From Kovacikia minuta CCNUW1 (lineage in GTDB: Bacteria > Cyanobacteriota > Cyanobacteriia > Leptolyngbyales > Leptolyngbyaceae), in contig NZ_CP083582.1 of the NCBI RefSeq assembly GCF_020091585.1, forward strand, positions 5,094,536 through 5,158,535: a DNA stretch of 64,000 bases, in the 5' to 3' direction. The notes beneath the pieces were generated by a model, which worked only from the letters and a program-made list of their open reading frames with translations, was not told the DNA's origin and did no database searches. Of this stretch, positions 9,266 to 47,661 are shown piece after piece. The position numbers and the translations under genes were made by a program. Position 1 is the stretch's first letter; every line of letters starts with the position of its first letter.

Positions 9266-9268
9266 CAC

Positions 9269-13385: not shown

Positions 13386-13402
13386 GGGGGAAGAGAATTA
13401 TG

Positions 13403-13502: not shown

Positions 13503-13529
13503 GAGTTATGCGTTTTGAGCCTTATTAAT

Positions 13530-13652
13530 TACGAATTCAAAACTCAAAACTTGAAACTCATCATCCATCATTCACAATTCAAATTCACAGTCAACAACTC
13601 AAAACTTAGAACTTAAAACTCAAAACTTAAAACTCAAAACTCAAAACTTACC
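13530..13652. repeat. STRR (AAAACTC/AAAACTT) repeats before bcsA
   Basis: Runs of AACTCAA/AAACTTA heptamers fill the bcsB-bcsA gap after the ATACCC element. It is the third repeat-filled junction in the cellulose locus. Confidence 0.85.
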
Positions 13653-13663
13653 CCCCCTTCCCC

Positions 13664-21860: not shown

Positions 21861-21899
21861 CCGACCCCATTTTCTACTGACTATTCACAAGGTAAAACC

Positions 21900-22266: not shown

Positions 22267-22282
22267 GCTGAAGCGCAAATCA

Positions 22283-22846
22283 ATGTCTGACTCCTTATCG
22301 GCACTGAATCTTAAATCGATGCCTGTACGGATGCAAAATCCGGCATCTGTTCCCCCCTCAACCAATAAAGAACAATTCCTGCGGCTCCACCTTGCACCCG
22401 ATACCAATGCCCTTTTACCCCTTATTCAAATGGCTGAGGTGTTAACGATTCCAATGGGTGAAATTGTGCCCATGCCACACATGCCTGCCTGGGTTATGGG
22501 TGTTTACAACTGGCGGGGTGAAATTCTCTGGATTGTCGATTTGGGACATCTCTGTGGACTGACACCCTGGTACGAACAGGCAACCAATATTTCAGCCCAT
22601 AAAGTAGTTGTGCTGCGTGTTCAGGACACGAATACAACCCATCCCAAAAGCCAGTTGCTAGGACTGGTGGTTGATCAAGTTGAAGATATTGAGTGGTGCG
22701 ATGTGGAAATGATTCAGGCTCTGCCCCTGTCTAATGTGGCTCCTGAATTAGCGAGATTGCTGCATGGATATTGGTGGAAATCGAATGACGATATGTTAGC
22801 GGTTCTGAATGGAGCCGCCATTCTTAGAGCCATGCCAAAGCAATAA
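22283..22846 (+). CDS. CheW-domain adaptor (PixI-like), locus 1
   Basis: A 187-residue protein with a single CheW (SH3-like) domain: LPLIQMAEVLTIPMGEIVPM, MPAWVMGVYNWRGEILWIVDL and LGLVVDQVEDIEW. It couples the downstream MCPs to the CheA kinase. The N-terminal about 35 residues are low complexity. Position between the receiver and the first MCP matches pixI. Confidence 0.9.
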   Translation: MSDSLSALNLKSMPVRMQNPASVPPSTNKEQFLRLHLAPDTNALLPLIQMAEVLTIPMGEIVPMPHMPAWVMGVYNWRGEILWIVDLGHLCGLTPWYEQATNISAHKVVVLRVQDTNTTHPKSQLLGLVVDQVEDIEWCDVEMIQALPLSNVAPELARLLHGYWWKSNDDMLAVLNGAAILRAMPKQ

Positions 22847-23005
22847 ATTTCGGCACAGGGCAAATCGGGCTTTGGTCGTTTGAGTGCGATCGCGCTTAAA
22901 CCTCCCCCCTTACAAAATCGGGACAACAGGGTGTCGTCTACGTCTCTCGATGCGCTCTCTGGTTTATCGGGTAACCACCCCCCTATTGTTAACGAGGTTT
23001 ATAGC

Positions 23006-25873: not shown

Positions 25874-25976
25874 GAGCGAGATTACCATCAAGCGATTCAT
25901 TCATTTCAGCAATCTTCAAATTAATCAGTGACATTGCCGTAGCCCCTTCATTTCTTCCTTCAGTGAGGTTTCCTCT

Positions 25977-28520
25977 GTGACTCAGTTTTCCCCTGACCCT
26001 AATTCCCAAAGTGCTCTTGACACCAACGGCTCTAGCGATCGATATATCTCCCTGCCGACCACTCTTAGACCAGGTGACAGACGCCAACGCATCTCAGCAG
26101 GCGATCGCCCAACCATGAATCAACCCAAATTGGCTTCTGATGCTAACCTGCCGTCAAAGCAACCCTTATCCTATCAGCCTGATTCCATCCCTCTTAAAAG
26201 GCGCAAATCCTCAATTCAACAGCGGTTTCTTGATTTACCGATTCGAAGTAAGCAATTTATTGCTTTGTTTACGTCTGAGGTCATCTCTGTGATTGGCTTA
26301 GTAGGTGTCGGGGCGATATTAATTGTTGCGGGTGGTCGCAGCCAACTGGTTCAGCAGGCAAAATCTGAGCTAGTGGTAACCGGAATTAACTACAACATCA
26401 AAATCAATCAGATGGGTTTTGGTTTTCGGGGTCAGGCAGATAATGCTGCAATCATTGCTGCTGCCAACGCTGTTGCCACAAAAGAACCACTGAGTTCTGA
26501 TCTCATGGTGCAGGTTCGAAAAATCCTCCAGAATGAAGTCAAAGCACGAAATATTGAGTTCGCCACTTTAGTCGATAAAAATGCAAAAATCATCGTCAAT
26601 GCAAACGCAAATCGTGAGGGAGAGCGGTTCGACCCAAACAACCTGGTGAGCCGTGTTCTAAAAGAGCCTCAACAAATTAAATCGAGCGAGATCGTGAGTT
26701 GGTCTGAGGTTGCCAAAGAGTCCCCTCCCCTCCCCAAGGAGTTTTCTGGTCAGGATGCTTTAGTACGCTACACCGTTACGCCAGTTAAAAATCCGACTAC
26801 GGAAACAGTCATTGGGGCACTCGTTTCTGGCGACATCGTAAATCGTAAGATGCCGATCGTCAGTAACACCGTGGAAGCTTTTGGAGGGGGTTACAGTGCG
26901 GTTTACCTTCGCCAACCGACTGGAACATTTACTCTGGCAACAGCGTTAGATCAGGGGCAGGCACCCAATTTAGAACAAGCCAAACCGAACGTTGCGCTGC
27001 CTGATAACGCACTGCTAGAAGATGCAGTGAAGGCAGACGGACAGCCCGTGACAAAGCGTGTGCAGATGGGTGGGCAGACCTACACAATGGCTGCCAGAGC
27101 GCTAAAAAATTCTGCGGGTCAACCGATTGCCGTTTTACTGCGAGGAACCCCGGAGAAATCCCTGAATGCATTGATCAAAGATAACCTGCTGTTGCAACTC
27201 GTGGTGACAATCCTGGCGATCGCCGTCAATGTTCTACTGGCGATCCTGCTGGGGCGGGCGATCTCCAAACCGATTAAGGATCTACAGCAAACAACACAGC
27301 AATTTTCTGAAGGTGATTTTCAGGCACGCGCCGAGGTTGTTTCAGCCGATGAAGTGGGTCAGTTAGCCATTGCATTTAATACAATGGCTGACCGAATTGA
27401 GACCAGTATGGACGAAATCCGACGCAAAGAAATTCTTCTGGCAGAAACAGCCCAACAAGCCCGCCAGGAAGCAGAAGCAGCCAGTTGGGAAGCTGAGAGT
27501 TTGGCACAAGAGCAGCGTCAGCAAAAAGAAGAACTACAAAAACGTGCGTTAGAACTACTGCAAGAGATCGCCCCCATCAGCCAGGGAGATCTCACAATTG
27601 CAGCGAAGGTAACGGATGACGAAATCGGGACGATCGCAGACTCCTACAACACCACCGTTGAAAGTTTACGCAAGATTGTGGTTCAGGTGCAGGCAGCAGT
27701 GAATCAGGTCACTGAAGCTACCAACCAAAACGATACCTATATTCAGGAACTCTCCACAGAAGCTTCCCGGCAGGTAGCAGAAATTGCGATCGCCCTTGAC
27801 CGTGTGAAAGAAATGACCGAGGTTGCACAAGCCGTTGCAATGAATGCCGAGCAAGCAAAAGTCGTTGTGCAACAGGCAACTCAAACTGTGGAAGCTGGCG
27901 ACGCCGCAATGGACAGAACCGTTGACGGAATTCGGGCAATCCGGGTAACGGTAGCGGAAACTGCCAAGAAGGTAAAACACCTGGGAGAATCTTCCCAAAA
28001 GATTTCCACGGTTGTGGAACTGATTAGCAACTTTGCAGAGCAAACCAAAATGCTGGCGCTGAATGCGTCGATTGAAGCCGCACTGGCGGGTGAAGAAGGT
28101 CGAGGCTTTGCCGTTGTTGCTGACGAAGTGCGGGCACTGGCACGACAATCTGCGGAGGCGACAGAAGAAATTCGCAAACTGGTTGCCAGCATTCAGGCAG
28201 AAACCAATGAAGTGGTTGCAGCAATGGAATCGGGGACGGAGCAGGTCGTGAGTGGGACAAAACTGGTAGACGAAACCCGCCAAAGCCTGAACAAAATCAC
28301 GATCGCCAGTAGCCAGATTAGCCAATTGGTTGGAGCGATTGCCCAGGCAACCATCGTCCAGTCGCAAGCCTCCGACGCCGTAACCCAAACCATGCAAGAC
28401 ATTGCCGCGATCGCTAACAAAACCTCCACCGAAACCAGTCAGTTTTCATCCTCCTATGAACAACTCCGAAAAGTTGCTCAAACCCTGCAAGCAGAAGTCG
28501 GTCAATTCAAAGTGAGCTAA
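25977..28520 (+). CDS. Methyl-accepting chemotaxis protein with periplasmic Cache-like sensor, locus 1
   Basis: 847 residues; the GTG start follows GAGG. A TM helix (about 100-120), a periplasmic Cache-like sensor (about 125-405), a second TM (about 407-430), HAMP ([15 protein letters not shown] onward), coiled coil, a second HAMP-like segment and the MCP hairpin ([22 protein letters not shown]). There is no GAF domain. It occupies the position of the second receptor gene of the Synechocystis pix locus (sll0042/pixJ2). The repeated segment ISQGDLT plus [10 protein letters not shown], shared with the preceding MCP, shows the two arose by duplication. Confidence 0.9.
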
Positions 28521-28539
28521 TTCAAGGCAGAAGGAAATA

Positions 28540-28700
28540 GGTGGTAGGTGGTAGGTGGTAGGTGGTAGGTGGTAGGTGGTAGGTATTATTCTTCATCCCC
28601 CCTCACTCCCCCTCCCCCCTCACTCCCCTCCCCCATCCCCCATCCCTCATCCCCCCTCACTCCCCCTCCCCCATCCCCCTTCACTCCCCCTCCCCCCTGA
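28540..28700. repeat. STRR repeats between MCP and cheA, locus 1
   Basis: About six GGTGGTA heptamers (28540-28583), then C-rich CCCCTCACTCCC/CATCCC units up to the cheA start. It is the same repeat class as in the cellulose locus and gives spurious open frames. Confidence 0.9.
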
Positions 28701-28703
28701 CCT

Positions 28704-31700
28704 ATGGCAATCAACTCTGATATTCGCGATCAAGCTTATCAGTTCTTTGTGGAAGAGGCTCCTGAATTATTACAGGTGCTTGAGTCGGGGTTATTGACCC
28801 TGACTCAAGCCCATAGTATTACCGAAATCCACAGCTTGATGCGGGCTGCCCATTCCATTAAAGGAGGAGCCGCCAGCGTAGGGCTAGAAGCGATCGCCAC
28901 CCTGGCTCACCGCTTAGAAGCCATTTTTAAGGTGCTCTATGGGGAGACATTAACGATCGATACTGAACTGGAGAACCAATTACTACAAGCCTTTGACTGT
29001 CTCAAATTACCCTTAATGGAGCAGATCACGAGGGGTTCTTTTGATCCGGAGGCAGCCCTGGCGATCGCCGATCCCATTTTTTTACAAATTGAAGCCCGCT
29101 GTGGAGATGCCCTCGCCCAGGCTGATAGTTACATTGCCAGCTCTACCGACTTAGGGCATAGACATGGTTTCCTCTATTTTTGAAGTAGATGTCGTCCAGG
29201 GGTTAGAGCGTCTAGCAAGTGTGGTTGCAAGCCCTCAGGACTTTGAAGTAGCAGGAGAATTGCGGGCACAGGCAGAAATCTTTGCAGGGTTTGCCGAGTT
29301 GCTCCGTCTGCCCGAATTTGGTGCCATCGCTGAAACCGTTCAACACGCACTCAATGCCCACCCAGAACAGGCTCTAGAAATTACAAAATTGGCACTTGTC
29401 GATTTTGAACAGAGCAGACAGGCAATCATGGCAGGCAATCGGACTCAGGGGATCGGTCCTTCTGTGGTCTTAGTCGAGTTGGCAAATCCCGCTGGCATAA
29501 CCCCCCCCTTGCCGAGCAGCAGACCGTTAATGGAATCCGTAGACAAGGGAGAAACAGCGATCGACGCGATCGAAATGGCGATTCCCCAATTGGAAAATAT
29601 TTTTGGCAGTCCTGCGTTTGAGATCGAAACGATTCAGCTTTTTTCAGATTCAGACGTTTCTGTGGTGTCTGAATTTGACTCCTCCCATCTCAGGGATCGG
29701 CACGAAATGGAATCGATGGATGCCCCAGAAACCCTAGAGGCAGCCGTTCAGTCGATCGAGAAAATTTTTGGTAACTTGCCTCCGCTTCAAAACGGGGCTG
29801 CATCACCCGTTCAAGCAGAATCTCCAAATCCAACTCCGTCTCAGGCTGGCAGTCTGGTTCCCTCAGAAAACAACTTAAGCCGTGCCCTGCAAGTCAGCCC
29901 ATCCACAGACCTGTACCATGCCGCAGAAGAACAATTTACCCAGGAACTAACCTACGTCCGCCAAATTGAAACACCTGCCGCTCCAAGCCTAACGGTTCGA
30001 GTTGATGCAGACCGATTAGAACGGATGAATAATCTGGTAGGTGAACTGGCAATCAACCGGGATGGTCTTTCGCTTCAAAATGAACAGCTTCAAGGAGCAC
30101 TGCGGGCGTTACTGAATCGATTTACACGTTTTCAAGATCGGGTCAACCAGTTACGAGAACTCTCCGATCAGATGCTTGTTGCTCCAGAGCGCTACGGCTA
30201 CGCCACCACAGGCACCGCTTTCGAACAAAACGGGATCGCAGGGCTTCAGAAATCCCTGACTAGCCGCTCTCTCCCAACTACCTATCCTTCCACCTTTTCT
30301 CTTCCTGCTGCGGCTGAGTTCGATCCCCTGGAAATGGATAGCTACAATGCGTTGCACTCCCAGCTTCAGGAAATCCTTGAAGATATGGTGCCCCTGGAAG
30401 AAATCGTTGATGACATTTCGCTGTTTACAAAACAATCCAATCAAACGCTGGAACAACAGCGACACATGTTATCTCGTCTGCGGGATGAGTTGATCTGGGC
30501 ACGCATGTTACCACTGGGCGAAATTTTAAGTCGGTTTCCACGGGTTTTGCGGGATCTCTCTACGGCATACCACAAACCTACGGATTTAAAGCTGACAGGA
30601 ACAGGAGTGCTGGTAGAAAAAGCGATTCTAGAAAAACTCTACGATCCATTGCTGCACCTGCTGCGGAATGCCTTTGACCACGGGATTGAACCGCCCCAGA
30701 TTCGACGCCAGCGCGGGAAACCAGAAAAAGGGCAGATTGAAATTCGGGCATACCACAAGGGAAATCAGACGGTTATTGAAGTGAATGATGATGGTCAAGG
30801 GTTAAACCTGGAGCGGATTCGCAATCGAGCGCTTGAATTAGGCTGGTTATCCGTTGAACAACTCGCTGAAACTTCTCCCGCCCAACTCTGTGAGCTAATT
30901 TTTGAACCCGGATTTTCAACGGCACTCCAGGTAAATGAACTTTCTGGACGGGGAGTGGGGTTGGATGTGGTGCGATCGCAACTGCGCTCAATTAAGGGCA
31001 CCGTAAGTGTTAAGTTTTCCCCTGGAAAGGGCACCACCTTTACGCTTCATCTGCCACTAACCCTGACCATTGCCAAATTAATTGTCTGCTTAGCTGGCTC
31101 TGCCGCTCTCGCCCTGCCCACAGATGGGGTTGAAGAAATCTTGACTCCCCTTTCTGGAAACATCCGCCAATCAGGCTCACAACGTTTCCTGTTATGGCGC
31201 GAACAAATCATTCCCGTTTACCGGTTGGCTAACCTGGTGGACTACCATTGCCCCTTACCAGAAGTCAGTTCCAGTAAATCATTTGCGGCAGTCTCCACGC
31301 CCAAATCCTGGGCATTACCCATGCTTGTTTTACGGGGAGAGCAACAAATTTTTGCCCTGGAGGTCGATCGCCTGATTACCGAACAAGAGCTTGTCATTAA
31401 ACCTTTCAGTTCAACAATTACTCCCCCCAGTTATACCTACGGCTGCTCCATCCTGGGAGATGGCAGTTTGATTCCGGTGATTGATGGCATTGCCCTACTG
31501 AACCAGAAACTCCATCAAAGTATGGCAGCGATCGCAGATGAATCAAAACCACTCCCAGTCATTCAAGGTGAGATTTCACCCGATCGCCCAATTCCACCTG
31601 CAATCAAAGCCGCTCAAACTCCTACCATTTTGGTGGTGGATGATTCTGCCACACTCCGCAGAACGCTGGTTCTCTCCTTAAAGCGGGCAGGTTTTCGAGT

Positions 31701-31995
31701 TTTGCAGGCACAGGATGGACGCGAGGCAATTAATCAACTGCAACAAAACACATCGGTACAACTGATTATTTGCGACATCGAAATGCCCAACATGAATGGT
31801 TTTGAATTTCTCACCTACCGTCGCCAGGATTCCCAACTCTCAAAAATTCCTGTCGTCATGCTTACCTCCCGTAGCAACGAAAAGCACCGTTGGCTGGCAA
31901 CCCAATTAAATGCAGCCGCTTATTTCACCAAGCCTTATCTGGAACAAGAGTTTCTAGCTAAGCTCAAAAAAATTATTCAAATCGGGCATTCGTGA
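28704..31995 (+). CDS. CheA-type hybrid kinase with receiver (PixL/TaxAY-like), locus 1 (one-base frameshift)
   Basis: Restored length 1096 residues. Hpt domain with AAHSIKGG (His50), a second degenerate Hpt-like region, P3 dimerisation helix (DRLERMNNLVGELA), HATPase with N-box LLRNAFDHGIE, VNDDGQGL and GRGVGLDVV, CheW domain, and a C-terminal receiver with VVDDS and CDIEMPNMNG (Asp near residue 1024). It is printed as two frames, 28704-29183 and 29164-31995, because of an extra G in GGG at 29155-29157. Removing it gives STDLGIDMVSSIFEVDVV, matching the undisturbed paralogue at 40986. The kinase should phosphorylate the PixG/PixH-like receivers. Confidence 0.9.
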
Positions 31996-32159
31996 TTGGT
32001 AATTCGTAACTCACAATTATTGAGTTGTTGGCAACTAGTAATCAGTAATTGGTTGGAGGCTTCTACTGACACCTGCCACTTGACCGCTAATACTTTTCCA
32101 GTCTTTATCCTCTATCCTTTATCCTTTCCCCACCCCCTACCCTCTACTCCTTGCTTCTC

Positions 32160-32675
32160 ATGAATAACTATCTTGCCAGTTCAACTTTTGACAGTGCGAA
32201 ACAGCGTAATCATCAGCAAGCTACCCAATCTCTCCACTTGATTGTTTTTGACATTGGAAATCTCAAATTGGCTGTACCGATTCAGTTTACTTACAAAGTT
32301 GCCAACTATAGCTCTGTGCATGGCAGTGGTCTTAATCACATGGGCGTCACCCATGTCGATAATCTTGAAATAACCGTTGTCGATCTGCATCGACGGCTGT
32401 TTAAATCCGATCAAACGGATGAATTTTCCCCTGATAACTGCCTGGTTATTGTCCAAAATTCAATGGGAGAACTCTGTGGCGTACCCAGTGCAAATGCGCC
32501 AACATTAATGGAAGTACCACTATCGATGATTCGTGCCTTACCTCCCTCCTATCGTCGATCGGACACACTGGATATTGCCAGCCATGTTGCGGTCATTCCG
32601 CAAGCATCGTCAACACTTACTCTCTTTTTGCTCGATGTTGATCAACTCTTGTCAAGTTCCCTCAAACTGCAATAG
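32160..32675 (+). CDS. Distal CheW-like protein, locus 1
   Basis: 171 residues from the ATG at 32160; an in-frame TTG at 32151 is less likely. One CheW-like domain: LIVFDIGNLKLAVPI, MGVTHVDNLEITVVDL, LVIVQNSMGELCGV, and a C-terminal LFLLDVDQLL. It is diverged from the proximal CheW (22283). It ends locus 1, about 165 bp after cheA, and is followed by a clear terminator. A gene of the same type ends locus 2. Confidence 0.78.
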   Translation: MNNYLASSTFDSAKQRNHQQATQSLHLIVFDIGNLKLAVPIQFTYKVANYSSVHGSGLNHMGVTHVDNLEITVVDLHRRLFKSDQTDEFSPDNCLVIVQNSMGELCGVPSANAPTLMEVPLSMIRALPPSYRRSDTLDIASHVAVIPQASSTLTLFLLDVDQLLSSSLKLQ

Positions 32676-34050: not shown

Positions 34051-35127
34051 ATGAACATCGTCTCCTTAACTAGCTATAATCCACCTCGAAGATTACATCC
34101 ACTCAGCTTGTTGGCTCAAATTACCAGCCGCAAAACAACAGGATGTTTGCGTGTACTGAATGAATCAACAACCTGGTCAATTTATTTAGATCAGGGAGAG
34201 TTGATCTACGCCACAAGTTCTGTTGATCCATTTGAACGACTCGATCGCCATTTACGCCAGTTGAGCCGCCAAGTTCCTACCATTGTCAGTGCGGTACGGG
34301 TTCAGGTGCGGCTAATGTTTGAAAATATCCCAGAGAGCCAATCTAATTTCAGTCCTGACTACCGGGCAATCTGCTGGTTAGTCGAGCAGCAATACTTGAG
34401 TTCGGAACAAGCCGTTAGCTTGATTGGCGAATTAGCGAAAGAAGTGATTGAATCATTTCTGTTAATTAGTGAGGGAAATTATGAGGTAATTGAGCGGGAA
34501 AAATTTGAGCAATGGATCAAATTGAGCCAGCTCGATTTACGATCGCTGGCTGAGCAATGTCAAAGTCGGTTACGACAATACCAAACTACAGGTAAATTAC
34601 CCACTTTACCGGGTAGAAAAGCTGAGTCTATGCCCGGAAATCAGCCTAAACTTCCCCAATCTCCCACAGCCGCAAGCAACCCAACCCAATCGGGTTATTC
34701 CCCCTCAGCAACACCAGGAAATGGCGCGAAAAGCAAGCCAGGGACAGAGAAGCTTTTGAAAGAAAAGTACACGATTGTGTGCGTTGATGATAGCCCAACG
34801 GTTCTACAAGCTATCAAAGCTTTTCTAGACGATACGAGTTTTTCTGTAGTGATGGTTAACGATCCTGTTAGAGCATTAATGCAGGTCATTCGGAGTAAGC
34901 CCGACCTGATTTTGATGGATGTTGGCATGCCCAATTTAGATGGATATGAACTGTGCGGATTGCTCAGAAGAAACCAGGCATTTAAGGCAACTCCAATCAT
35001 TATGGTGACAGGACACACTGGATTTATCGATCGGGCAAAGGCAAAACTTGCAGGCGCATCGGGCTATTTGACGAAACCCTTTACCCAGCCAGAACTGCTG
35101 AAGATCGTGTTTAAGCATTTGAATTAA
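34051..35127 (+). CDS. PATAN-REC response regulator (PixG/PatA-like), locus 2
   Basis: 358 residues. An N-terminal PATAN domain (TTGCLRVLN, SIYLDQGELIYATSS, then the helical WLVEQQYLSSEQA segment), a Pro/Ser/Gly linker (about 190-235) and a receiver (about 240-358) with CVDDSP, phospho-acceptor in LMDVGMPNLDG, VTGHTG and LTKPFT. It is paralogous to 20610-21860 and opens the second locus. No strong ribosome site precedes the ATG. Confidence 0.88.
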   Translation: MNIVSLTSYNPPRRLHPLSLLAQITSRKTTGCLRVLNESTTWSIYLDQGELIYATSSVDPFERLDRHLRQLSRQVPTIVSAVRVQVRLMFENIPESQSNFSPDYRAICWLVEQQYLSSEQAVSLIGELAKEVIESFLLISEGNYEVIEREKFEQWIKLSQLDLRSLAEQCQSRLRQYQTTGKLPTLPGRKAESMPGNQPKLPQSPTAASNPTQSGYSPSATPGNGAKSKPGTEKLLKEKYTIVCVDDSPTVLQAIKAFLDDTSFSVVMVNDPVRALMQVIRSKPDLILMDVGMPNLDGYELCGLLRRNQAFKATPIIMVTGHTGFIDRAKAKLAGASGYLTKPFTQPELLKIVFKHLN

Positions 35128-35263: not shown

Positions 35264-35641
35264 ATGAATATCACGTTAATGGCAACAATTCTAATCGTAG
35301 AAGATACACCTTCTGAGATGGAATTAATCAGCCATTTTCTCAGGGAAAGTGGTTATATCGTTATCCATGCTGTCAGCGGCAGGGAGGCTTTGGATAAAGC
35401 GGTTGAGCAAAAACCAGATGTGATCATTTCTGATGTTGTCATGCCAGGAATGAGTGGATTTGAGCTTTGTCGCAGTCTTAAGAAGCACCCCGTTACAGAG
35501 AAGGTTCCAATTATTTTATCGACTTCCAAAAACCAGGAGATCGATCGCCTTTGGGGTATGAAACAGGGCGCAGATGCTTATATCACTAAACCCTTTACAC
35601 GGGAACAACTTGTGCATGCAGTCAAATCGGTTATTGGTTGA
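35264..35641 (+). CDS. Single-domain response regulator (PixH-like), locus 2
   Basis: A 125-residue receiver: VEDTP pocket, phospho-acceptor in IISDVVMPGMSG, STSKNQE and Lys in YITKPFT. AGGGAAG (35251-35257) fits the ATG at 35264; MATILIVED (35279) is an alternative start. It is the intact paralogue of the frameshifted 21900-22266 gene (both share DRLWGMKQGADAY-type wording near the C-terminus) and helps confirm that frame. Confidence 0.9.
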   Translation: MNITLMATILIVEDTPSEMELISHFLRESGYIVIHAVSGREALDKAVEQKPDVIISDVVMPGMSGFELCRSLKKHPVTEKVPIILSTSKNQEIDRLWGMKQGADAYITKPFTREQLVHAVKSVIG

Positions 35642-35645
35642 ACGA

Positions 35646-36158
35646 ATGAATTCCATCGCACTCAACTCCACAGGGCTGGTGTTACATTCTGAGCGTCCCC
35701 AAAAAGTCCTGGGAGATGCTTATCTTAAGTTTCAGTTAGACTCAAAAACTGCTGCTGTTTTGTTGATGAAACAGGTGCAAGAAGTCCACATCTTGCCGAC
35801 CAATCGCCTGACTCCCATCCCCAATATGCCCGCCTGTGTGATGGGTTTAATGAGTCGCCGTAGTCGCGTATTGTGGGTGATTGATCTGGCACAGATGTTA
35901 AAAATACAACCGCTCAACGCCCTAACTCAACAATACAACGTAGTGATTTTGCAACCTGGAGTGGTGTCTATCGGTGCCCTTGTTCATCGCATTGATGGCA
36001 TGACCTGGCTTCAACCAGAACAGATCCAACCTCCTCCAAATCACTTCCCTCCCGGTTTAGTCACGCATTTAAAAGGATGTGTACTGCAAGAGAAAGAAAT
36101 TTTACTGGTGCTGGACGCCGAAGCAGTGATGCGATCGCCCCTGTTGCATCAGCCCTAA
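35646..36158 (+). CDS. CheW-domain adaptor (PixI-like), locus 2
   Basis: 170 residues from ATG 35646, 4 bp after the receiver stop. CheW domain with VQEVHILPTNRLTPIPNMPA, VMGLMSRRSRVLWVIDL and GALVHRIDGMTWL. The frame extends upstream into the receiver gene, but that part is not CheW-like. It is expected to bridge the tetra-GAF MCP and the second CheA. Confidence 0.9.
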   Translation: MNSIALNSTGLVLHSERPQKVLGDAYLKFQLDSKTAAVLLMKQVQEVHILPTNRLTPIPNMPACVMGLMSRRSRVLWVIDLAQMLKIQPLNALTQQYNVVILQPGVVSIGALVHRIDGMTWLQPEQIQPPPNHFPPGLVTHLKGCVLQEKEILLVLDAEAVMRSPLLHQP

Positions 36159-36341: not shown

Positions 36342-39300
36342 ATGGTTCACCCACTCAATCCACCTAGTCGCAACAACAATCCAGGGCAATCCCAGTTCAT
36401 TTCTCCTATGGATACGATGATTCCCAAAAGTATCAGCCAGCCTGTTAGTGAAGACAACCATTTTCAAACAACCGACATTAACGGTCATCACAACACTGCA
36501 CCTAATGTGCCTCCCAATAACGCTTCCACTTCGCCTAAACAGTTTGAAGATCATCCTTTTGAAAATTCGGCGGCACCAACAAGTCCTTCGCTGCGACGGC
36601 AACTTTTGACGACAATTTTGCCCTGGGCGTTAGTGCCATTGGGAGTTGTTGGGATTTTGAGCCAGGTGCTGACTGGGCAAAGTAATGACCAGCAAACAGA
36701 AAAGAATTTAGAGAACCAATCCTTAACTGCAAGTCGTGCGATCGAAAATGCTGTTAAAACGGTAAAGGCAATTCCAGCAATGGTTGCCCCCGATCCAGCA
36801 GTGGTAGAATTTTCCCGTTCGACAGCCAATGAGGTTGAGCAAAGTGGGTTGAGCCGTCTCTCTCCAGCAGAGGCAGCAGCGGCACTGGCTGCAAACAATC
36901 CGCTGCCTGCGAACCGATCGCTGGACAATTATTTGAAGCGGATTGTCGATACCAGACAACTGACAGAACTGCTGATCACGGAACAACATGGTTTCCAAAT
37001 TGCTGCCAGTCGCCCTTCTGCCGACCTGGTAAAACAGGATGAAACCTGGTGGCAAACTGTTAAAAAGCAGGGAAGTGCTATCGAACCCATGCTGGATGCC
37101 AGCGGAAAAGTGACAGGAATTAACATCGGACAGGCGATAACTGACCCCAGTTCTAACCAATTTTTAGGAGCGGTACGCGGTCGATTGTCCCTGACCGATT
37201 TAGGAAAAACCCTGGATTTACTCAAGACAACCCTGACTGGCTCACAACAAATGCAACTGTTGAGCTTAACCGATCGGGGGATGAAATCGATCGCGACCCT
37301 GACAGCAGATGGACAGAACAAGCCCGTGGAGGTTGCAGGGGGGGAAGCCGTTGCCCAAAAAGCGGCGGCATTAATTGCCCAATTGAACAACACCCAGGCG
37401 AGTTCAGGCAAGACCGATCTGCCAACCCACTCAATTACAGATGCAAACGGCAACCGCATATTACTAACTTCCTTTAGCCAGAACGGCAGACAATACACGC
37501 TGGCAACCATTCCCAACACAAATTGGGTTGCTGTTGCCTCCATCGCTCAGTCTGAAATCGGAATCACGGGGCAAAACTGGGTCTGGATTTTTGCATCGAT
37601 GATTCTGCTGGCGACGGGATTTGTTGCGCTTGCCGTTTCTCGGTCTGCCCGCCAAATTTCACTGCCACTTAGCGACCTGGTTCAGGCTTTAGAACAGATA
37701 TCAGCGGGCAACATGAACGTTTACGTCAAACCCAAGGGCAGCGGCGAAACCCAGAAGCTCGCCCAAACCTTCAACGGACTGGTCACGCACTTAAAGAAGG
37801 TACTACAAACGCAAAGTGAAGCGCTCAACCAGGCTCAGTTTTATGCTGATCTGGCTCACTTCGCTGCCCTGGGCGATAACCAGGCTGTTTTTAACCTTGC
37901 GGTGCAAGTGGCAAAAAGCCATCTTACGGCTGATCGGATGGTGATTTACAGCTTTGAACCCGATTGGAGTGGGACGATCGTCGCTGAAGCCGTTGATCCC
38001 GGTTGGCCCAAAGCTTTAAGAGATAGAATTACAGACCCCTGCATTCCCAAACAAACCCTGGAGCAATACCGTAAAGGACGATTCATTGCAACGAACGATG
38101 TGCAAAAGTCTGCCTATTCCGCTGCCCACATGCAACTGTTGCAGCGATTAGAAGTCAAAGCAAACCTGGTCGTCCCCATTGTTTCCAGCGATCGCCTGTT
38201 AGGGCTAATTGTTGCCCATCAGTGCTCTAATCCACGGGTTTGGCAGCAAGCAGACATTAACTTTTTACGGGAACTTGCAACTCAGATTGGTTTAGCACTG
38301 ACGGGCGTTACACTGGCTGCCCAAAGGAGTGCAGATACCGAGCGGCTGAGGCTGCTCAGCAAAATGGTCAGTAATATGCGTCAGTCCTTAAAGCGAGAGG
38401 ACATCCTGAGAACTGCCGTCAATGAACTTCGAGAAGCACTCAGTACCGATCGGGTGATTGTTTACTGGTTTAATCCTGACTGGAGTGGAACCGTCATTGC
38501 TGAATCTGTAGGGGTTGCCTGGAAAAGAATCCTGGGAGAAACCGTCAACGATCCATTCCGGGAGGGGTTAACTGAACAGTACCGAAATGGGCGGGTACGG
38601 GCAATGAATGATATCGCCCATGAGAACATCACCGATTGCCACCGTGACATTCTCGATGGCTTTGAGATCAAAGCCAATATCGTTGCGCCGATCGTGCAAA
38701 ACAATCAACTTCTGGGGTTACTCTGTGCCCACCAGTGTGTTGGTCCACGCAAGTGGGAGGACGAAGAAATTGATCTATTTAGCCAATTTGCAACCCAACT
38801 TGGCTTTGCCCTGGAACAAGCCAAACTGTTTACGCAGCAGGAAGAAGCTGCAAAACGTGCCCATCAGCTCAATGAGATCACCTTCCACATGCGTGAATCA
38901 CTAGATCGGGAGCAAATCTTTAGCACCGTCGTTAATGACACACGGGAAATGCTGGAAGCAGACCGGGCAATTGTTTACTTGTTTGATCAGGATTGGAAAG
39001 GAACGATTGTTGCTGAGTCCGTTGGACAGAAATGGCCCCCTGCATTGAACGCCAATATTGCCGATCCCTGCTTTGCTCGTAATTATATGGAAAAGTATCG
39101 GAAAGGGCGGGTACAGGCACTTTCCAATATCTATGAAGCCAAATTAGATCCATGCTATATGGGTCAGCTTGAGCCATTTGAGGTCAAAGCAAATATCGTT
39201 GCCCCGATTCTGGCCGAAAGTGAGCTTCTGGGTTTACTCTGTGTTCACCAGTGTTCTGGCTCCCGCCTGTGGCAAGAAACTGAAATTAACTTCCTGCGTC

Positions 39301-40899
39301 AGGTGGCAATTCAACTCGGATTTGCACTGGATCAAACCAACCTGCTAAAACGCCAGGAGGAAGCAACAAAACGCGCCCGCCAGCTGAATGAAATTACCTT
39401 CCACCTGCGCGATTCGTTTGATCATCAGCAAATTTTCAACGCCGTTACACGGGAAACACGGGAAGCGCTGGAAACCGATCGCGTCCTGATCTACCTGTTT
39501 GATCAAAGCTGGCAGGGGACGATCGTTGCGGAGTCGGTTGGCAAGGGTTGGCCCATCGCATTGGGTGCCAATATTGCTGACCCTTGCTTTGCCGAGTCCT
39601 ACCTCGAAAAATATCGCCGGGGGCGGGTTCACGCGATTACAGATATTAATGCTGCCCATCTAGACCCCTGCTACCGGGGGCAGCTCGTACCATTTGAGGT
39701 CAAAGCAAACATCGTCGCGCCGATTCTGGTGGAAGAGAATCTGCTCGGTTTGCTAGTTGCCCATCAATGCTCCAGTCCGCGCCCCTGGCAGGAAACAGAA
39801 ATTAACTTCTTAAAACAGGTGGCGATTCAGCTTGGGTTTGCCCTGGAGCAAGCCAATCTGTTTATCCAAAAGGAACAGGTTTCCCAGGAACAACGCCAGC
39901 AAAAAGAAGCTCTGCAACTCCAATTGGTAGAACTGTTGAGCGATGTTGAAGGTGCAGCCAGCGGCGATCTGACCGTTCATGCCGATGTCACCGCAGGCGA
40001 AATTGGGACGGTCGCTGACTTCTTTAACTCGATCGTGGAAAATCTACGCCAGATTGTGACCCAAGTGAAACAGTCTGCATTGCGAGTGAGCGCTTCGGTT
40101 GGCGAAAACGAACAATCTATCCGCCAGTTAGCCAACGAAGCCCTGAAGCAAGTAGAGGAAACGACTCTAGCGTTGAACTCCGTAGAGGAAATGACCCAAT
40201 CGATTCAGGCAGTTGCCGATCGTGCCCAACAGGCAGCAGACGTTAGCCGAATGGCAGCAGCAACCGCAGAAACAGGGGGTGTCGCAATGGATCTAACGGT
40301 TCAAAACATTCTCAACCTGCGGGAAACGATCGGTGAAACTGCAAAGAAAGTAAAGCGCCTGGGTGAGTCCTCTCAACAGATTTCCAAAGTTGTCTCCCTG
40401 ATTAACCAAATTGCCCTGCAAACAAACCTACTGGCAATCAATGCAGGAATTGAGGCTGCCCGTGCTGGCGAGCAAGGACAGGGGTTTGCGGTTGTGGCTG
40501 AGGAAGTGGGTGAACTGGCTGCCCGTTCCGCTGTTGCAACCCAGGAGATTGAGCAAATTGTGGATGCCATTCAACGGGAAACCAGCGAAGTAGTTGAAGC
40601 AATGGAACTGGGAACAACCCAGGTCGTTGAAGGTACACGCCTGGTAGGAGATGCCAGACAAAGTTTGGAACACATTCTGGAAGTCTCGCGCCAGATCGAT
40701 CAACTGGTGCAGGCAATCTCTGATACAACCGTTTCCCAGGTACAAACATCCCAGGCAATTACAAGCTTGATGCAAGAGGTGGCGCAGGTCTCCGGGGCGC
40801 ACATCTGATTCCTCGATATTGGTCTCCAATGCCCTGCATCAAACGGCTGAAATTGCTCGCGAGTTAGAAGCATCGGTCGAGACGTTCAAAGTGGGGTAG
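36342..40899 (+). CDS. Tetra-GAF methyl-accepting protein, candidate cyanobacteriochrome photoreceptor (one-base frameshift at 3' end)
   Basis: Restored length 1518 residues. Disordered N-terminus, TM1 (about 95-112), Cache-like periplasmic sensor, TM2 (about 412-432), HAMP, four phytochrome-class GAF domains (starting about 500, 670, 845 and 1017), coiled coil, then the MCP hairpin ([21 protein letters not shown]). GAF1 lacks the canonical Cys (SAAHMQLL). GAF2 has TDCH (Cys766-His767). GAF3 and GAF4 have DPCF (Cys910, Cys1082) and DPCY (Cys938, Cys1110) exactly 28 residues apart, the spacing seen in DXCF cyanobacteriochromes. An extra G in 40794-40797 ends the printed frame at 40808; without it the frame continues as [18 protein letters not shown] to VETFKVG and a stop at 40899. 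Confidence 0.88.
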
Positions 40900-40946: not shown

Positions 40947-40985
40947 AAGAATCGTCCCTGCAATCACTCACTATTGGACAGAAAC

Positions 40986-43900
40986 ATGTCACACGATAAG
41001 GAACTTGAAATCCAGCGTCAGTTTCTCGATGAAGCGCAGGAGTATCTAAGTACACTGGAGTCTGCCGTGTTGGGATTAGCCAGCAGCCGGATCGATGGGC
41101 AAAAAATTAACGCGGCGTTGCGGGCTGCCCACTCCATCAAAGGGGGGGCGGGCATGATGGGCTTTCATACCTTGAGTGATCTGGCGCACCGTTTGGAAGA
41201 TTCCTTCAAAGTGTTGAAAACGCAAAAACAGTCGATCACAGTCGATTCAGACCTGGAGCATCTCTTGCTGTCTGGGGTAGATTGTCTGCGTTATGAGATT
41301 CATTCCAAGCGCGAAGTCGATCTCAGGGGCGATCGCCTCTCACCCTTGATCGATTACCACTGGCTAGAGACCCAGGCAAACCCGATTTTTGATCAACTGC
41401 ATCAACGGCTGGGAGAACCCCAGGCAGAGGATGCCGTTTCCGTCCTCGCCTCTGAAGAAAGCCAGGATATCCTACCCGTTTTGTTTGAAACTGAGGTAGA
41501 GGGTAGTCTGCAACGGTTAGAAACGGTTCTGGCAGCCCCCGGAAAACCCTTGCTACAAGAGGAACTGGCAATTCTGGCACAGGAATTAGGGGGTTTAGGA
41601 GAAATGCTCCAGCTCAGCCCGTTTAGCCAGCTGTGTGAATCTGTGGGACAGGCCATCGCCACCTACCCCAGTGAAGCAGAAGCCATTGCCCAGGCAGCGC
41701 TTCAGTCCTGGCGGCGATCGCAAGCATTAATTTTGACGGGTCAGGTTGACCTGTTGCCAACCGAGATCGAGTTTGCCCCTGATGTCAGCTCAACTGAGCA
41801 ACTGCAAGCAGAACCCTTTGAGCCATTTGATCAACGGGAAGAATTTTTGGATGATTCGGAACAAATCATTGAGCAACTGAATGAACAACTGAATGAATAC
41901 TCGATCGAACCATCCCTTGAGCAATCGATCGAACCATCCCTTGAGCAACCGATTGAACCACCGCAGGAAACCCCGGTTGAATGGGAACTACCCTCTGTTC
42001 TTATCTCTCCTACACCGGTGCCCCTGATTCAGGAACCTGCTCCCTCTGCCAGACAGACGCGATCGGTGGGAACTTCACAGGTGACCGATTTCAAAGTATT
42101 AGAAGTCAAATCTGATCCATCTTCTGATGCTGCCGAAGAAGACCCAGATGCCACAGTACGGGTTCCGATCAAACAACTGAATCGACTCAATGATTTGCTG
42201 GGCGAACTGACGATCGAACGTAACGCCCTTGATCTGTATTTGAAACGTTTGCGTAATCTATCCCAAAGCCTTAAACGTCGAGTTCAGATCCTCGATCAGT
42301 CCAACGCTCAAATGCGAACTGCCTACGATCGCAAGAATTTTAGATTGCCAATTTTAGACTTCAAATTCTCTTCTCCTGGGAAATCCGTTAAATTCTTGAA
42401 AGCGGCTGAGCTTGATCCCAAACTTCACACCCCACACCCCACATCCCACACCCCACACCCCACACCCCACTCCAACGACTTCGATACCCTCGAAATGGAT
42501 CGGTATGATGACCTGCATCTGCTGTCTCAACAGGTGATGGAAACCATCGTTCAAATTCAGGAAGTAAGCAGTGATATTGAACTCAGCCTGGATGATTCTG
42601 AACAAGCCACCCGCAACCTGAATAAAACTGCCAGACAAATGCAGACCAGCCTGACGCAGGTTCGCATGCGCCCCCTGTCGGATATTGTCGATCGCTTCCC
42701 CAGAGCATTGCGCGAGCTTTGCCTGCAACATGGCAAGAAAGCCAAACTCAGTTTGCTGGGAAGCAACACCCTGATCGATCGCAACATTCTGGAAGCCCTC
42801 AACGATCCCCTCATGCATCTACTCCGCAATGCGTTCGATCATGGCATTGAAGCTCCCGAAGTGCGCATTGCCCACAGTAAACCCGAAGAAGGAACGATCG
42901 AAATTCGCGCATTTCATCAGGGAAACCGGACCTTCATTACCTTACGAGACGATGGGGGTGGCATTCCCGTAGACAAGATCCGCAATCGCGCTGAACAGAT
43001 GGGGCTAGACCCGACATTATTAGCGGCTGCCAGCGACGAAGAACTATTGTCATTGATTTTTGAACCCGGATTTAGCACCGCTGACCAGGTAACCTCCTTG
43101 TCCGGTCGAGGGGTCGGCATGGATGTGGTTCGAAACAGCTTGCAGCAGGTACGGGGAGAGATTAAAGTCGATACCCAGTTGGAAGTTGGCACAACGTTCA
43201 CCATCTCTGTCCCCCTGACCCTCTCGGTGGTGCGCGTCTTGCTGGTTGAAAGTAATGGCATGATGTTGGCTTTCCCCACCGACACAATCAGCGAAATGAT
43301 TACCCTGCGACCAGAAGAGGTGATGAACACTGCTGGCAGTGAAGTGTTTGCCTGGGGTGAGGCGATCGTCCAACTGATTGTCCTATCCCGCTGGCTAGAG
43401 TTTCGCTGCCCTCGTCAACCCAACACCTCAGAAACACCCCCCAACATCAATGCCCCCACCGTTCTGATGGTGAGTCAGGGAAATCAACTGGTTGGCATTC
43501 AGGTCGATCGCTGCTGGGGAGAACAGGAAGTCGCCGTGCGTCGTGTTGATTCAATCATTTCCATGCCCCCCGGCTTTACCAACTGCACCATTATGGGAGA
43601 TGGTCGTGTCGTCCCCCTGGTCAATGTCCCCGAACTGCTGCACTGGATTACAAGCTATGGCTGGTCCCCCACTCCCCAGCCATCCCCAATGCTATCCAGC
43701 CAACCGAGTTTGACTCCCACAGCCTATCCACTCATCAGCCCTGCCACTCCCCCCTCCCTCCCTCCCCAAAAAGCCACCATTCTTGTTGTGGATGACTCAA
43801 TCAACGTTCGTCGCTTCCTGGCTTTGACTTTAGAAAAAGCGGGCTATCAGGTCGAGCAGGCAAAAGATGGTCAGGATGCCCTGGAGCGGCTTCAACGAGG

Positions 43901-44153
43901 ACTGCACGTCCAGGCTGTTATCTGTGATATTGAAATGCCTCGCCTGGATGGATATGGCTTTTTAGCAAAAGTGAAAGCCAAACCAACCCTGGAACATCTA
44001 CCGATCATCATGCTCACGTCTCGTAGTGGAGACAAACATCGCCAGCTTGCCATGAACCTGGGAGCCACTGCCTATTTCTCCAAACCCTATAACGAACAAA
44101 CCCTACTCCGAAATCTAGAACAAATTCTGGGTATCAATGTACCCGTTGGATAA
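40986..44153 (+). CDS. CheA-type hybrid kinase with receiver (PixL/TaxAY-like), locus 2
   Basis: 1055 residues from ATG 40986; a TTG at 40974 is possible. Hpt with AAHSIKGG (His49), a degenerate second Hpt-like region, an acidic linker with tandem SIEPSLEQ units, P3 dimerisation (LNRLNDLLGELTIERN), HATPase (LLRNAFDHGIEAP, LRDDGGGI, GRGVGMDVV), CheW domain and C-terminal receiver (VVDDSINVR, CDIEMPRLDG, Asp about 980). A CCCCACA-type heptamer array at 42425-42474 is translated in frame as HTPHPT units inside the P3 insert. It is the full-length paralogue of 28704-31995. Confidence 0.93.
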   Translation: MSHDKELEIQRQFLDEAQEYLSTLESAVLGLASSRIDGQKINAALRAAHSIKGGAGMMGFHTLSDLAHRLEDSFKVLKTQKQSITVDSDLEHLLLSGVDCLRYEIHSKREVDLRGDRLSPLIDYHWLETQANPIFDQLHQRLGEPQAEDAVSVLASEESQDILPVLFETEVEGSLQRLETVLAAPGKPLLQEELAILAQELGGLGEMLQLSPFSQLCESVGQAIATYPSEAEAIAQAALQSWRRSQALILTGQVDLLPTEIEFAPDVSSTEQLQAEPFEPFDQREEFLDDSEQIIEQLNEQLNEYSIEPSLEQSIEPSLEQPIEPPQETPVEWELPSVLISPTPVPLIQEPAPSARQTRSVGTSQVTDFKVLEVKSDPSSDAAEEDPDATVRVPIKQLNRLNDLLGELTIERNALDLYLKRLRNLSQSLKRRVQILDQSNAQMRTAYDRKNFRLPILDFKFSSPGKSVKFLKAAELDPKLHTPHPTSHTPHPTPHSNDFDTLEMDRYDDLHLLSQQVMETIVQIQEVSSDIELSLDDSEQATRNLNKTARQMQTSLTQVRMRPLSDIVDRFPRALRELCLQHGKKAKLSLLGSNTLIDRNILEALNDPLMHLLRNAFDHGIEAPEVRIAHSKPEEGTIEIRAFHQGNRTFITLRDDGGGIPVDKIRNRAEQMGLDPTLLAAASDEELLSLIFEPGFSTADQVTSLSGRGVGMDVVRNSLQQVRGEIKVDTQLEVGTTFTISVPLTLSVVRVLLVESNGMMLAFPTDTISEMITLRPEEVMNTAGSEVFAWGEAIVQLIVLSRWLEFRCPRQPNTSETPPNINAPTVLMVSQGNQLVGIQVDRCWGEQEVAVRRVDSIISMPPGFTNCTIMGDGRVVPLVNVPELLHWITSYGWSPTPQPSPMLSSQPSLTPTAYPLISPATPPSLPPQKATILVVDDSINVRRFLALTLEKAGYQVEQAKDGQDALERLQRGLHVQAVICDIEMPRLDGYGFLAKVKAKPTLEHLPIIMLTSRSGDKHRQLAMNLGATAYFSKPYNEQTLLRNLEQILGINVPVG
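42425..42474 (+). repeat. In-frame heptamer (CACCCCA)n array inside cheA, locus 2
   Basis: About seven CACCCCA/CATCCCA heptamers encode HTPHPTSHTPHPTPHS in the insert between the P3 helices. It is the same kind of sequence found in intergenic STRR arrays (e.g. 1110-1130) and is open here because 21-nt units keep frame. Confidence 0.85.
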
Positions 44154-44157
44154 ACCG

Positions 44158-44691
44158 ATGACCCATTCCCTTGCTCCGCGATCGCGGCGGCTCAAGTCCG
44201 ACCAACTAGAGGCAAACCGCCACTTGATTGTGTTTTCTCTGCGGCAAGAAAGGTTTGCTTTACCCGTTCAGGCGGCTCAGAAAGTGATTCCCATCAGTAA
44301 CCTGCGTGGGTATATACCAGGTTGCGATAGCCATTTGATCCTTCAGCAGAATTATCGAATCCCCGTCATCAACATCGAACAACAAATCTTTGGGAGTTCT
44401 ACCCCTCAAAATCTTCTTGCTGCTGGTTCTACCCTCCCTTCCACGCAACCCAGCTTGAACCCAATTCTAGAAAGCTACTTACTGGTGATTCAAAATCTTC
44501 AAGGCGAGGTTTTGGGGCTACCGATCGCAACTCAGCCCATCCTACAGCGCATACCAGAATCAGCCTTTGCCCCAATTTCAGCTACCAGCCTAAACAATGT
44601 CAATATCCGCTATGTCAGCGCTCTGATCACTCTGCCTCAAAACCAGTCACCCATCTTTCTACTCAACCTCAGTCAGCTTTTTTTTCCATAA
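44158..44691 (+). CDS. Distal CheW-like protein, locus 2
   Basis: 177 residues from ATG 44158, 4 bp after cheA; an in-frame ATG at 44137 overlaps cheA. CheW-like fold: LIVFSLRQERFALPVQ, YRIPVINIEQQIFG, LVIQNLQGEVLGLPIA, and a C-terminal IFLLNLSQLFF. It is the counterpart of the distal CheW of locus 1 (32160). Confidence 0.75.
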   Translation: MTHSLAPRSRRLKSDQLEANRHLIVFSLRQERFALPVQAAQKVIPISNLRGYIPGCDSHLILQQNYRIPVINIEQQIFGSSTPQNLLAAGSTLPSTQPSLNPILESYLLVIQNLQGEVLGLPIATQPILQRIPESAFAPISATSLNNVNIRYVSALITLPQNQSPIFLLNLSQLFFP

Positions 44692-44748: not shown

Positions 44749-45897
44749 ATGAATATCTACCACCTTCTACAACAATACGCAGCAGGAGAACGAGACTTTA
44801 GCGGTATCGATTTGAGTCGGGCCGTCTTAAATGGAGTTGACCTGCAACGGGCTGATTTTTGGCAGGCAATCCTGCAAGGAGCTGACTTAAGTTGGGCAAA
44901 TTTAGCCAGGACAAATTTGCGAGAAGCCGCACTTCAGGCAGCCAATCTCAGGGGTGCGATCTTGACAGGTGCGGATCTAAGATTTGCAAACCTGCGGGGG
45001 GCAATTGTTGATGAAGCAAATCTGCACCATGCCCTTTATGACCCAAACACTCAATTTCCTCCAGATTTTGCCCCTGACGCAGCGGGTGCTTACCGAATTG
45101 CTCCTGGTAGTCTGTTATCAGATGCGGATCTGCAAGGAGCTGACTTGAGTGGGGCTGACTTGAGCGCTGCTAATTTAAGGAAGGCAAATCTTCAACACGC
45201 AGGTCTATTTGGTGTCAATTTCAAGCAAGCCAAGCTAAACCATGCCGATTTACAAGCAACAGATTTAAGTGAAGCGAACTTATCTCAGGCAGATCTGAGA
45301 AGTAGTAATTTGCAGGAAGCAAACCTACATGGAGCCAATTTGCACCGCGCCAACCTGAAGGGAGCAGATCTTCGGGGTGCAAACCTGACTGATGCAGATC
45401 TAACCAAATGCAATTTATTCGGAGTTGACTTTCGGGGTGCGCTCATGCGATCGATTCATTTGCAAGGAGCCGTTTACGATGATGCGACTCAGTTTCCCGA
45501 CCAGTTTAACCCTGCCAGCTTAGGCGCATACCGCATCGCATCTGTAGTTGATCTACGAAATATCGATTTAAGCCAATTGAACCTGGCTGGTGCAAACCTA
45601 TCTGGTGCAAACCTGGCTGGTGCAAACCTGTCTGCTGTAGATTTATCGAGTGCCGATTTATCCAATGCAGATTTGTTTGGTGTAACACTATCAAATGCGG
45701 ATCTATCAAATACCAACCTGTTTGGTGCCGATTTGTCCAACGCAGATCTATCTAGAGTCGAGCTATGGGGAACAAACCTGAGTGAGGCAATCCTGACTGG
45801 CACAAAATTCACTCAGTCAAATCTTTGGGGAGCTGATTTAACTGGAACAGATTTGAGTAATGCAGTTCTAGCCGACAGCGTAGGAGGGAAGGGTTAA
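44749..45897 (+). CDS. Pentapeptide-repeat protein
   Basis: 382 residues, almost wholly A(D/N)LXX pentapeptide repeats, predicted to form right-handed quadrilateral beta-helices. Two repeat blocks are each interrupted by a similar insert, NTQFPPDFAPDAAGAYRI and ATQFPDQFNPASLGAYRI, showing internal duplication. The N-terminal helix MNIYHLLQQYAAGERDF is the usual cyanobacterial lead-in. No signal peptide, so cytoplasmic. It lies 57 bp after the distal CheW through a CAAAACTC repeat and may be read with locus 2. Function unknown. Confidence 0.9.
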   Translation: MNIYHLLQQYAAGERDFSGIDLSRAVLNGVDLQRADFWQAILQGADLSWANLARTNLREAALQAANLRGAILTGADLRFANLRGAIVDEANLHHALYDPNTQFPPDFAPDAAGAYRIAPGSLLSDADLQGADLSGADLSAANLRKANLQHAGLFGVNFKQAKLNHADLQATDLSEANLSQADLRSSNLQEANLHGANLHRANLKGADLRGANLTDADLTKCNLFGVDFRGALMRSIHLQGAVYDDATQFPDQFNPASLGAYRIASVVDLRNIDLSQLNLAGANLSGANLAGANLSAVDLSSADLSNADLFGVTLSNADLSNTNLFGADLSNADLSRVELWGTNLSEAILTGTKFTQSNLWGADLTGTDLSNAVLADSVGGKG

Positions 45898-46956: not shown

Positions 46957-47661
46957 CTAATAGGGAACAGTACCCTGATAGCTATTGCCATCTGGCATAA
47001 TTGCCCATTCCAACCGGACCTTACTCAAATCCGTATTTCTCAACTTTGCCCGAAACAAATTGGCATACCGTAAATCCGCTCCGTTCAGATCAGCGTTGAC
47101 CAGCGTTGCATCTGTCAAAATTGCTCCATAAAGGCTGGCACGGTTTAAATTCGTTCGTTCAAGTTGGGCAAAACTGAGGTTTGCATCCCGCAATTCTGCG
47201 TTCTCAAAACTTGTCTCTTTCAGGATGGTTCTAGAAAGGCTGGTATTCAAAAGTTGAGTATGATTCAAATTAGCTCTTGTTAAATTGGCTTCATTTAAAT
47301 CTGCGCCTTGCAAATTTGTATGGGCTAAATTGGCTTGATTCAACTTTGCATGACTCAAAATTGTGTTGATCAGCTTGGCATGGGACAAATTTGCCCCAGT
47401 CAAGTTTGCACCGCTCAAATCGACATTGCTTAAATCGGTTTTACTCAAATCAACGCCACTGAGATTGCACTTCACACATTTCCTGGTTTGCCGCAATCGC
47501 TCAACGCTACTGGCTGGGGTCAGCACCAAATGTTCCGCTCCCCGAATTGCTTTCATTGCGTTAGCCATCAATTGAGGCTGGGAAGTTTGCTTCAATAGAT
47601 AGAAGGTGCCTAAAACAGTGGCAGTCGATGCAGTTATGACCAAAACAATCTTCAGGTTCAT
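46957..47661 (-). CDS. Membrane-anchored pentapeptide-repeat protein
   Basis: 234 residues. One N-terminal TM/signal anchor (about 4-24), a spacer, then KCVKCNLSGVDLS, a CxxC entering a run of about 25 pentapeptides (ADLXX/ANLXX) to near the C-terminus (VPY). The CxxC-pentapeptide join is common in cyanobacterial secreted repeat proteins. It is likely periplasmic or lumenal. It lies upstream of and in line with the lipoprotein gene. Function unknown. Confidence 0.85.
   Translation of the reverse strand: MNLKIVLVITASTATVLGTFYLLKQTSQPQLMANAMKAIRGAEHLVLTPASSVERLRQTRKCVKCNLSGVDLSKTDLSNVDLSGANLTGANLSHAKLINTILSHAKLNQANLAHTNLQGADLNEANLTRANLNHTQLLNTSLSRTILKETSFENAELRDANLSFAQLERTNLNRASLYGAILTDATLVNADLNGADLRYANLFRAKLRNTDLSKVRLEWAIMPDGNSYQGTVPY

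Follow-up and report, generated by a model that had tools for sequence, protein, structure and literature searches.

How many bilin chromophores can a single taxis receptor hold, and by which cysteines? This question is raised by a pixJ-like gene at 36342–40808 (+) in the cyanobacterium Kovacikia minuta CCNUW1. The gene lies in a stretch of 64,000 nucleotides (contig NZ_CP083582.1 of assembly GCF_020091585.1, positions 5,094,536 to 5,158,535), which is called the window below and whose numbering is used throughout. Its product of 1488 aa consists of an N-terminal region, a HAMP domain, four GAF domains of the cyanobacteriochrome (CBCR) type and a methyl-accepting chemotaxis protein (MCP) signalling domain. 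An initial annotation of the bare sequence had described a tetra-GAF MCP with a graded set of CBCR cysteines, and Pfam recovered this layout: HAMP (residues 436–485; 37647–37796, +), four GAF stretches and MCPsignal (residues 1300–1483; 40239–40790, +). We propose, with a probability of about two in three, that the product is a PixJ-type receptor for phototaxis or photophobotaxis, in which four CBCR GAFs, each with at least one Cys of the bilin-ligating type, would feed their bilin states to the MCP domain and to the kinase PixL. Statements cited by PMC number refer to the available excerpts of those papers.

Four GAF domains and their cysteines

All 12 Cys of the product were listed. C567 falls in GAF1 (residues 490–665; 37809–38336, +), C766 in GAF2 (residues 666–835; 38337–38846, +), C910 and C938 in GAF3 (residues 838–1008; 38853–39365, +), and C1082 and C1110 in GAF4 (residues 1010–1182; 39369–39887, +). 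The last five had been numbered exactly in the initial annotation. The best structure matches were TePixJ for GAF1 (136 bits), GAF3 (147 bits) and GAF4 (150 bits), and PPHK for GAF2 (142 bits). Phytochrome structures reached at most 76 bits, as against 136–150 bits for the CBCR structures. By these scores all four GAFs are of the CBCR type and nearer to CBCR GAFs than to phytochromes. The outcome that the initial annotation had named as fatal to its claim, with all four domains outside the CBCR clade, was not what we found: CBCR structures outscored phytochromes by far. GAF is a general ligand-binding fold, and the four domains might be ordinary sensors of cyclic nucleotides or other ligands. 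Set against this are the bit scores, the retained chromophore-type Cys and Asp motif, and the place of the gene within a pix operon; we consider such a role very improbable.

GAF3 and GAF4 share 70% identity. As had been noticed at the outset, each carries DPCF and DPCY exactly 28 residues apart, and each has Tyr after the canonical Cys. This is the usual spacing, found in 142 of the 154 two-Cys GAFs collected and, as read from the alignment, in TePixJ. A second Cys and a canonical Cys about 28 residues apart define a DXCF CBCR, and both domains have them. In a tree built without the motif columns, the DXCF clade that holds GAF3 and GAF4 has 64 members. Both Cys are present in all of them, and the canonical Cys is followed by Tyr in 39 and by His in 25, which rules out this Tyr as a rare trait. 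In the engineered miRFP670nano, a His-to-Tyr change at the same position stacks on biliverdin (PMC6336887); Tyr after the canonical Cys is therefore compatible with a covalent bilin. By their sequence, both are DXCF domains of the common dual-Cys kind. Teal-type DXCF GAFs have been tied to a Phe in beta2 together with a Phe in helix 4 (PMC5240096). GAF3 and GAF4 have Phe in helix 4 but Ile at the beta2 position, and the teal type was rejected for them. Since the beta2 Phe is absent, a photocycle with a blue dark state and a greenish photoproduct is the plain expectation. Phycocyanobilin (PCB) or phycoviolobilin (PVB) would sit on C938 and C1110, and C910 and C1082 would add reversibly to C10 of the bilin.

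The genome has genes for the synthesis of PCB and of phycoerythrobilin (PEB). Phycocyanobilin:ferredoxin oxidoreductase and two enzymes of the PEB branch, which we take to be PcyA, PebA and PebB, are represented by matches that exceed the NCBIfam cut-offs, and there are two heme oxygenases.

GAF1 and the second-Cys-only clade

GAF1 had been placed at the non-bilin end of the graded series. It does lack the canonical Cys: Ala595 (38124–38126, +) occupies that site, 28 residues after C567 and just before the conserved His596. However, C567 (38040–38042, +) had been overlooked. It lies in D-P-C567-I-P at the DXCF position, the DXCIP motif of a CBCR lineage reportedly due to Fushimi 2016, and its presence excludes GAF1 as a Cys-less GAF. 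C567 is thus a candidate for the sole bilin-ligating Cys of the domain. The published DXCIP lineage is without the canonical Cys (PMC6628166, PMC5578081) and attaches its bilin through the second Cys only, with a green-absorbing dark state (PMC5578081). The clade of GAF1 matches this lineage by its motif, so far as motifs can assign it. A bilin in GAF1 would be held by C567 alone and would have a green-absorbing dark state.

The placement of GAF1 was obtained in two ways. For IQ-TREE, 100 rows were sampled from 320, which comprised 314 unique GAFs and six references (TePixJ, AnPixJg2, NpR6012g4, the NpR3784-derived miRFP670nano, PPHK and 8k9o, titled RcaE); this tree kept the motif columns, and membership of the DXCI class was defined by the motif. 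GAF1 fell inside a clade of 29 DXCI GAFs (29/29 rows; support of 97 by the Shimodaira–Hasegawa-like approximate likelihood ratio test, SH-aLRT) and inside a PixJ subclade of 10 rows (SH-aLRT 100). In FastTree, the columns around both Cys were removed and the DXCI clade was taken as the span of seven named seeds, giving 94 members; it was monophyletic here too, with a support of 0.978. The second Cys is kept in 92/94 members and the canonical Cys in 0/94. The latter count leans towards loss of the canonical Cys because of how loci L035–L113 were retrieved: two peptide patterns were used, the best 80 of 227 relatives were retained, and one pattern has the canonical site as its last position and excludes Cys there. 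Because of this bias, we counted separately the 18 members found without any motif: the second Cys is present in 18/18, the canonical Cys in 0/18 and the following His in 18/18.

Could GAF1 nevertheless be a blind structural or dimerisation domain, with bilins only on GAF2–4 and with C567 a leftover or redox Cys? Several results weigh in this direction and against a bilin on every GAF. According to a review, the second GAF is the only one that binds PCB in Synechocystis PixJ1 (PMC5812497). None of the 94 clade members has the canonical Cys, which normally anchors the bilin stably, and two of them are without the second Cys as well. The C567 column ranks only 15th in conservation among the GAF1 columns (91/93); seven columns are invariant at 93/93, and among them is C628, which is not known as a bilin ligand and is thus more conserved than C567. 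Opposed to blindness is the retention of the C567 position in 92/94 members and of the Asp565 and His596 columns in 91/93 each. Eight pocket-type columns all equal TePixJ in 87/93 DXCI GAFs, a count that leans upwards since these columns were picked among those highly conserved in the DXCI clade. Among 16 GAFs outside this clade that have lost the canonical Cys, 10 of them from a clade already without the second Cys, none matches all eight columns, two match seven, and the second Cys is still present in two and gone in 14. In addition, DXCIP GAFs are reported to attach bilin (PMC5578081). The predicted model of GAF1, which contains no chromophore, has a predicted local distance difference test (pLDDT) score of 86, and its best PDB match is TePixJ 4fof. 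On balance, we regard a blind GAF1 as unlikely.

The equivalent of C628 (AHQC) is widespread in other GAFs: it was kept in 93/93 DXCI, 153/154 two-Cys and 52/53 Cys-deletion-clade GAFs and in 13 of the 16 degenerate ones. The position is Ala in two TePixJ chains of the PDB.

The position of the domain in its receptors is constant. In 88/88 non-redundant frames, the series of CBCR-type GAFs starts with a member of the DXCI clade; some of these frames are cut by locus ends, so that an upstream GAF could be hidden. Counted with repeats, 100 frames include 47 with a DXCI GAF followed by one DXCF GAF (24 with Tyr and 23 with His after the canonical Cys) and 23 with a DXCI GAF alone.

A second MCP of the window (22880–25873, +), built of dCache, HAMP, one GAF and MCP domains, has a GAF with DACIS and AH, in which the second Cys is kept and the canonical one lost. 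This GAF falls in the DXCI clade of GAF1. In three relatives examined (loci L077, L108 and L111), an amino-acid permease follows downstream at a distance of about 1 kb or less. The K. minuta genome also encodes, at L114 (C1:6410200-6412400), a protein with DXCI, DXCF-CH and DXCF-CH GAFs.

Three CBCR lineages are assigned within one chain, with Cys complements of second only, first only and both. The initial annotation had suggested two or three bilins of different colour classes. Several classes are indeed found at the level of lineages, but with the second Cys of GAF1 and its DXCIP motif counted in, the number of candidate bilins rises to as many as four. We would give slightly less than an even chance to the wider proposal that neither the GAF at the head of PixJ-type receptors nor the one GAF of the second MCP is blind, so that the domain would be a conserved second-Cys-only bilin sensor and the receptor would read four bilins by all three Cys linkage modes.

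GAF2 and the variable middle of the receptor

GAF2 has TDCH (C766, 38637–38639, +) and no DXCF Cys, as was originally stated. The DXCF Cys is missing because this single residue is deleted (DP-F, residues 737–739) and not substituted. In the 100-row tree, GAF2 groups with DP-F/M-REG GAFs (15 rows, SH-aLRT 98), one of which, from locus L017, does have Cys in the DXCF Cys column. The group next to it mostly has CHCE at the canonical site (joint support 83). GAF2 keeps C766-His and equals TePixJ at all eight chosen columns. Val occupies both its gate-Trp and its beta2 position, and its helix 4 carries Phe. Among 291 genomes of the class, 50 gave a GAF2-like match at E ≤1e-50 when only the 9 or 12 top candidates of each were scored. 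Tandem REG-type GAFs without the DXCF Cys, 63–68% identical to GAF2, occur as three copies in L120, L121 and L124 and as four in L122.

Two known types were considered for GAF2 and rejected. The gate motif of XRG red/green GAFs is W-X-D-X-X-L (PMC11284453), and Val at the gate-Trp position rules this type out. The NpR3784 lineage was suggested by the same Val and by PPHK being the best PDB match; NpR3784 and PPHK GAFs also resemble GAF2 in having no second Cys. They differ from it in that Tyr stands in place of the second Cys in PPHK and in the NpR3784-derived sequences, whereas GAF2 has a deletion there, and they form a separate clade in the 100-row tree. Slr1393g3, JSC1_58120g3 and Anacy_2551g3, which were outside the tree, scored below PPHK with the profile of the GAF2 group.

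Two results on GAF2 weaken the proposed four-bilin receptor. Without the motif columns, the REG set of 25 had a FastTree support of only 0.50. The group of GAF2 contains no reference out of the six included in the tree, so that the colour of GAF2 is a guess. PCB would be held by C766 alone, with no adduct at C10, and the domain would probably switch at longer wavelengths, from red or orange to green.

It might also be that only GAF3 and GAF4 are photosensors and that GAF2, like its counterparts in orthologues, is in the course of losing its bilin. The DXCF Cys is already gone; the canonical Cys too is lost in 10/63 members of the larger Cys-deletion clade around GAF2, and in one orthologue (L151) the canonical site of the second GAF reads SDRH. 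Against this, the canonical Cys is kept in 53/63 of that clade, and in GAF2 itself the C766-His pair and all eight TePixJ-like columns are retained. We consider this less probable still than a blind GAF1, and retain the proposal of bilin-ligating Cys in all four GAFs.

The orthologues show how much the middle of the receptor varies. In the PixJ subclade, with 18 GAF1 rows, 17/17 frames open their GAF series with DXCIP and, as far as they can be read, close it with a DXCF GAF that has Cys-Tyr. The count omits L036, whose sequence runs over two frames, and in L006 and L007 the sequence is truncated beyond the fourth GAF. Between these two ends there may be nothing (e.g., L042, L047), one GAF without both Cys (L039, L040, L041, L044), a GAF that lost both Cys plus a DXCF GAF (L043, L045, L046), a CHCE-type plus a DXCF GAF (L035), or a REG plus a DXCF GAF in either order (the K. 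minuta receptor, L006, L007, L037). In L151, 60% identical in GAF1, Arg replaces the canonical Cys of the second GAF, and the third GAF is without its second Cys. Evolution between bilin and non-bilin GAFs, the other suggestion of the initial annotation, is thus visible in the middle domains of orthologues and not within the K. minuta receptor itself. With fixed ends and variable middle domains, gain and loss of bilin linkage may be traced inside one receptor family. No report of the DXCIP-first, DXCF-last layout was met in literature excerpts covering few CBCR papers, which says little on priority.

The pix operon and known systems

The gene has the marks of a pixJ: HAMP, CBCR GAFs and a C-terminal MCP domain. 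On its 5' side are a PixG-like response regulator (DUF4388 and receiver, 34051–35127, +), a PixH-like CheY receiver protein (35264–35641, +) and a PixI-like CheW protein (35574–36158, +), all identified by domain matches. Likewise by domain matches, the 3' side has a PixL-like CheA hybrid kinase with Hpt, HATPase, CheW and receiver (40974–44153, +) and a second CheW-like protein (44137–44691, +). If DUF4388 is the PATAN domain, as we take it to be, the PATAN-receiver, CheY, CheW and CheA genes expected in a PixJ operon all stand beside this gene. The tax1 operon of Synechocystis consists of the PixG, H, I, J and L set (PMC5812497), and this set matches the genes around 36342–40808, which are thus a pix/tax1-type operon. 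Relatives L037 and L042 have DUF4388-receiver, CheY and CheW genes upstream of pixJ, L047 has DUF4388-receiver and CheW upstream and CheA downstream, and L035 has CheW upstream. The gene probably encodes a PixJ-type receptor that steers movement by light. The four GAF states would be summed onto the MCP domain and the neighbouring PixL; PixL would phosphorylate PixG and PixH, and type IV pili would be biased. Six T2SSE-type ATPase matches in the genome are possible pilus motors.

Just 3' of the operon are two pentapeptide-repeat proteins (44749–45897, +, and 46957–47661, −). A second chemosensory cluster stands beside the operon (20610–32675, +), with a DUF4388-receiver, a CheY remnant, CheW, two MCPs, a separate Hpt protein, CheA and CheW; it presumably resembles the Pil/Hmp-type motility set. 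The CheY-like receiver in it (21882–22266, +) starts in one frame and continues in another, which reflects a broken gene or an assembly error. The light and taxis genes share the window with a cellulose-synthesis-like cluster (6983–16232, +) of a TPR protein, a GH8 glycosidase, BcsB and a BcsA-type synthase with PilZ.

Should GAF1 bind a bilin through C567, PixJ receptors would weigh two or more kinds of bilin state against each other within one chain. This would bear on the puzzle of how a receptor of the blue/green type can redirect cells in light of many colours (PMC5812497).

PixJ proteins with one to five GAFs are known (PMC13383048), and the Phormidium lacuna PixJ homologue (WP_087710364.1) likewise has four GAFs and a C-terminal MCP domain (PMC8794177). 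The four-GAF architecture is therefore already known; the interest lies in the three Cys complements of one chain and in the evidence that GAF1 is not simply blind. The receptor shares with PixJ1/TaxD1 of Synechocystis and with TePixJ the MCP-type CBCR and the blue/green GAF, and with PixJ1 also the pixG-H-I-J-L type operon (PMC5812497). PixJ1 has two GAFs instead of four; the additions here are the Cys-deleted GAF2 and a duplicated DXCF GAF. PtxD (NpF2164) of Nostoc punctiforme is likewise a multi-colour, multi-GAF MCP in a che-like cluster, but it has seven GAFs, two of them with bilin linked to the second Cys, and the available part of the review mentions no DXCIP module in it (PMC5812497). 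With the DXCIP lineage GAF1 shares the motif and the absent canonical Cys (PMC5578081, PMC6628166), and here such a domain stands as the first of four GAFs in a PixJ.

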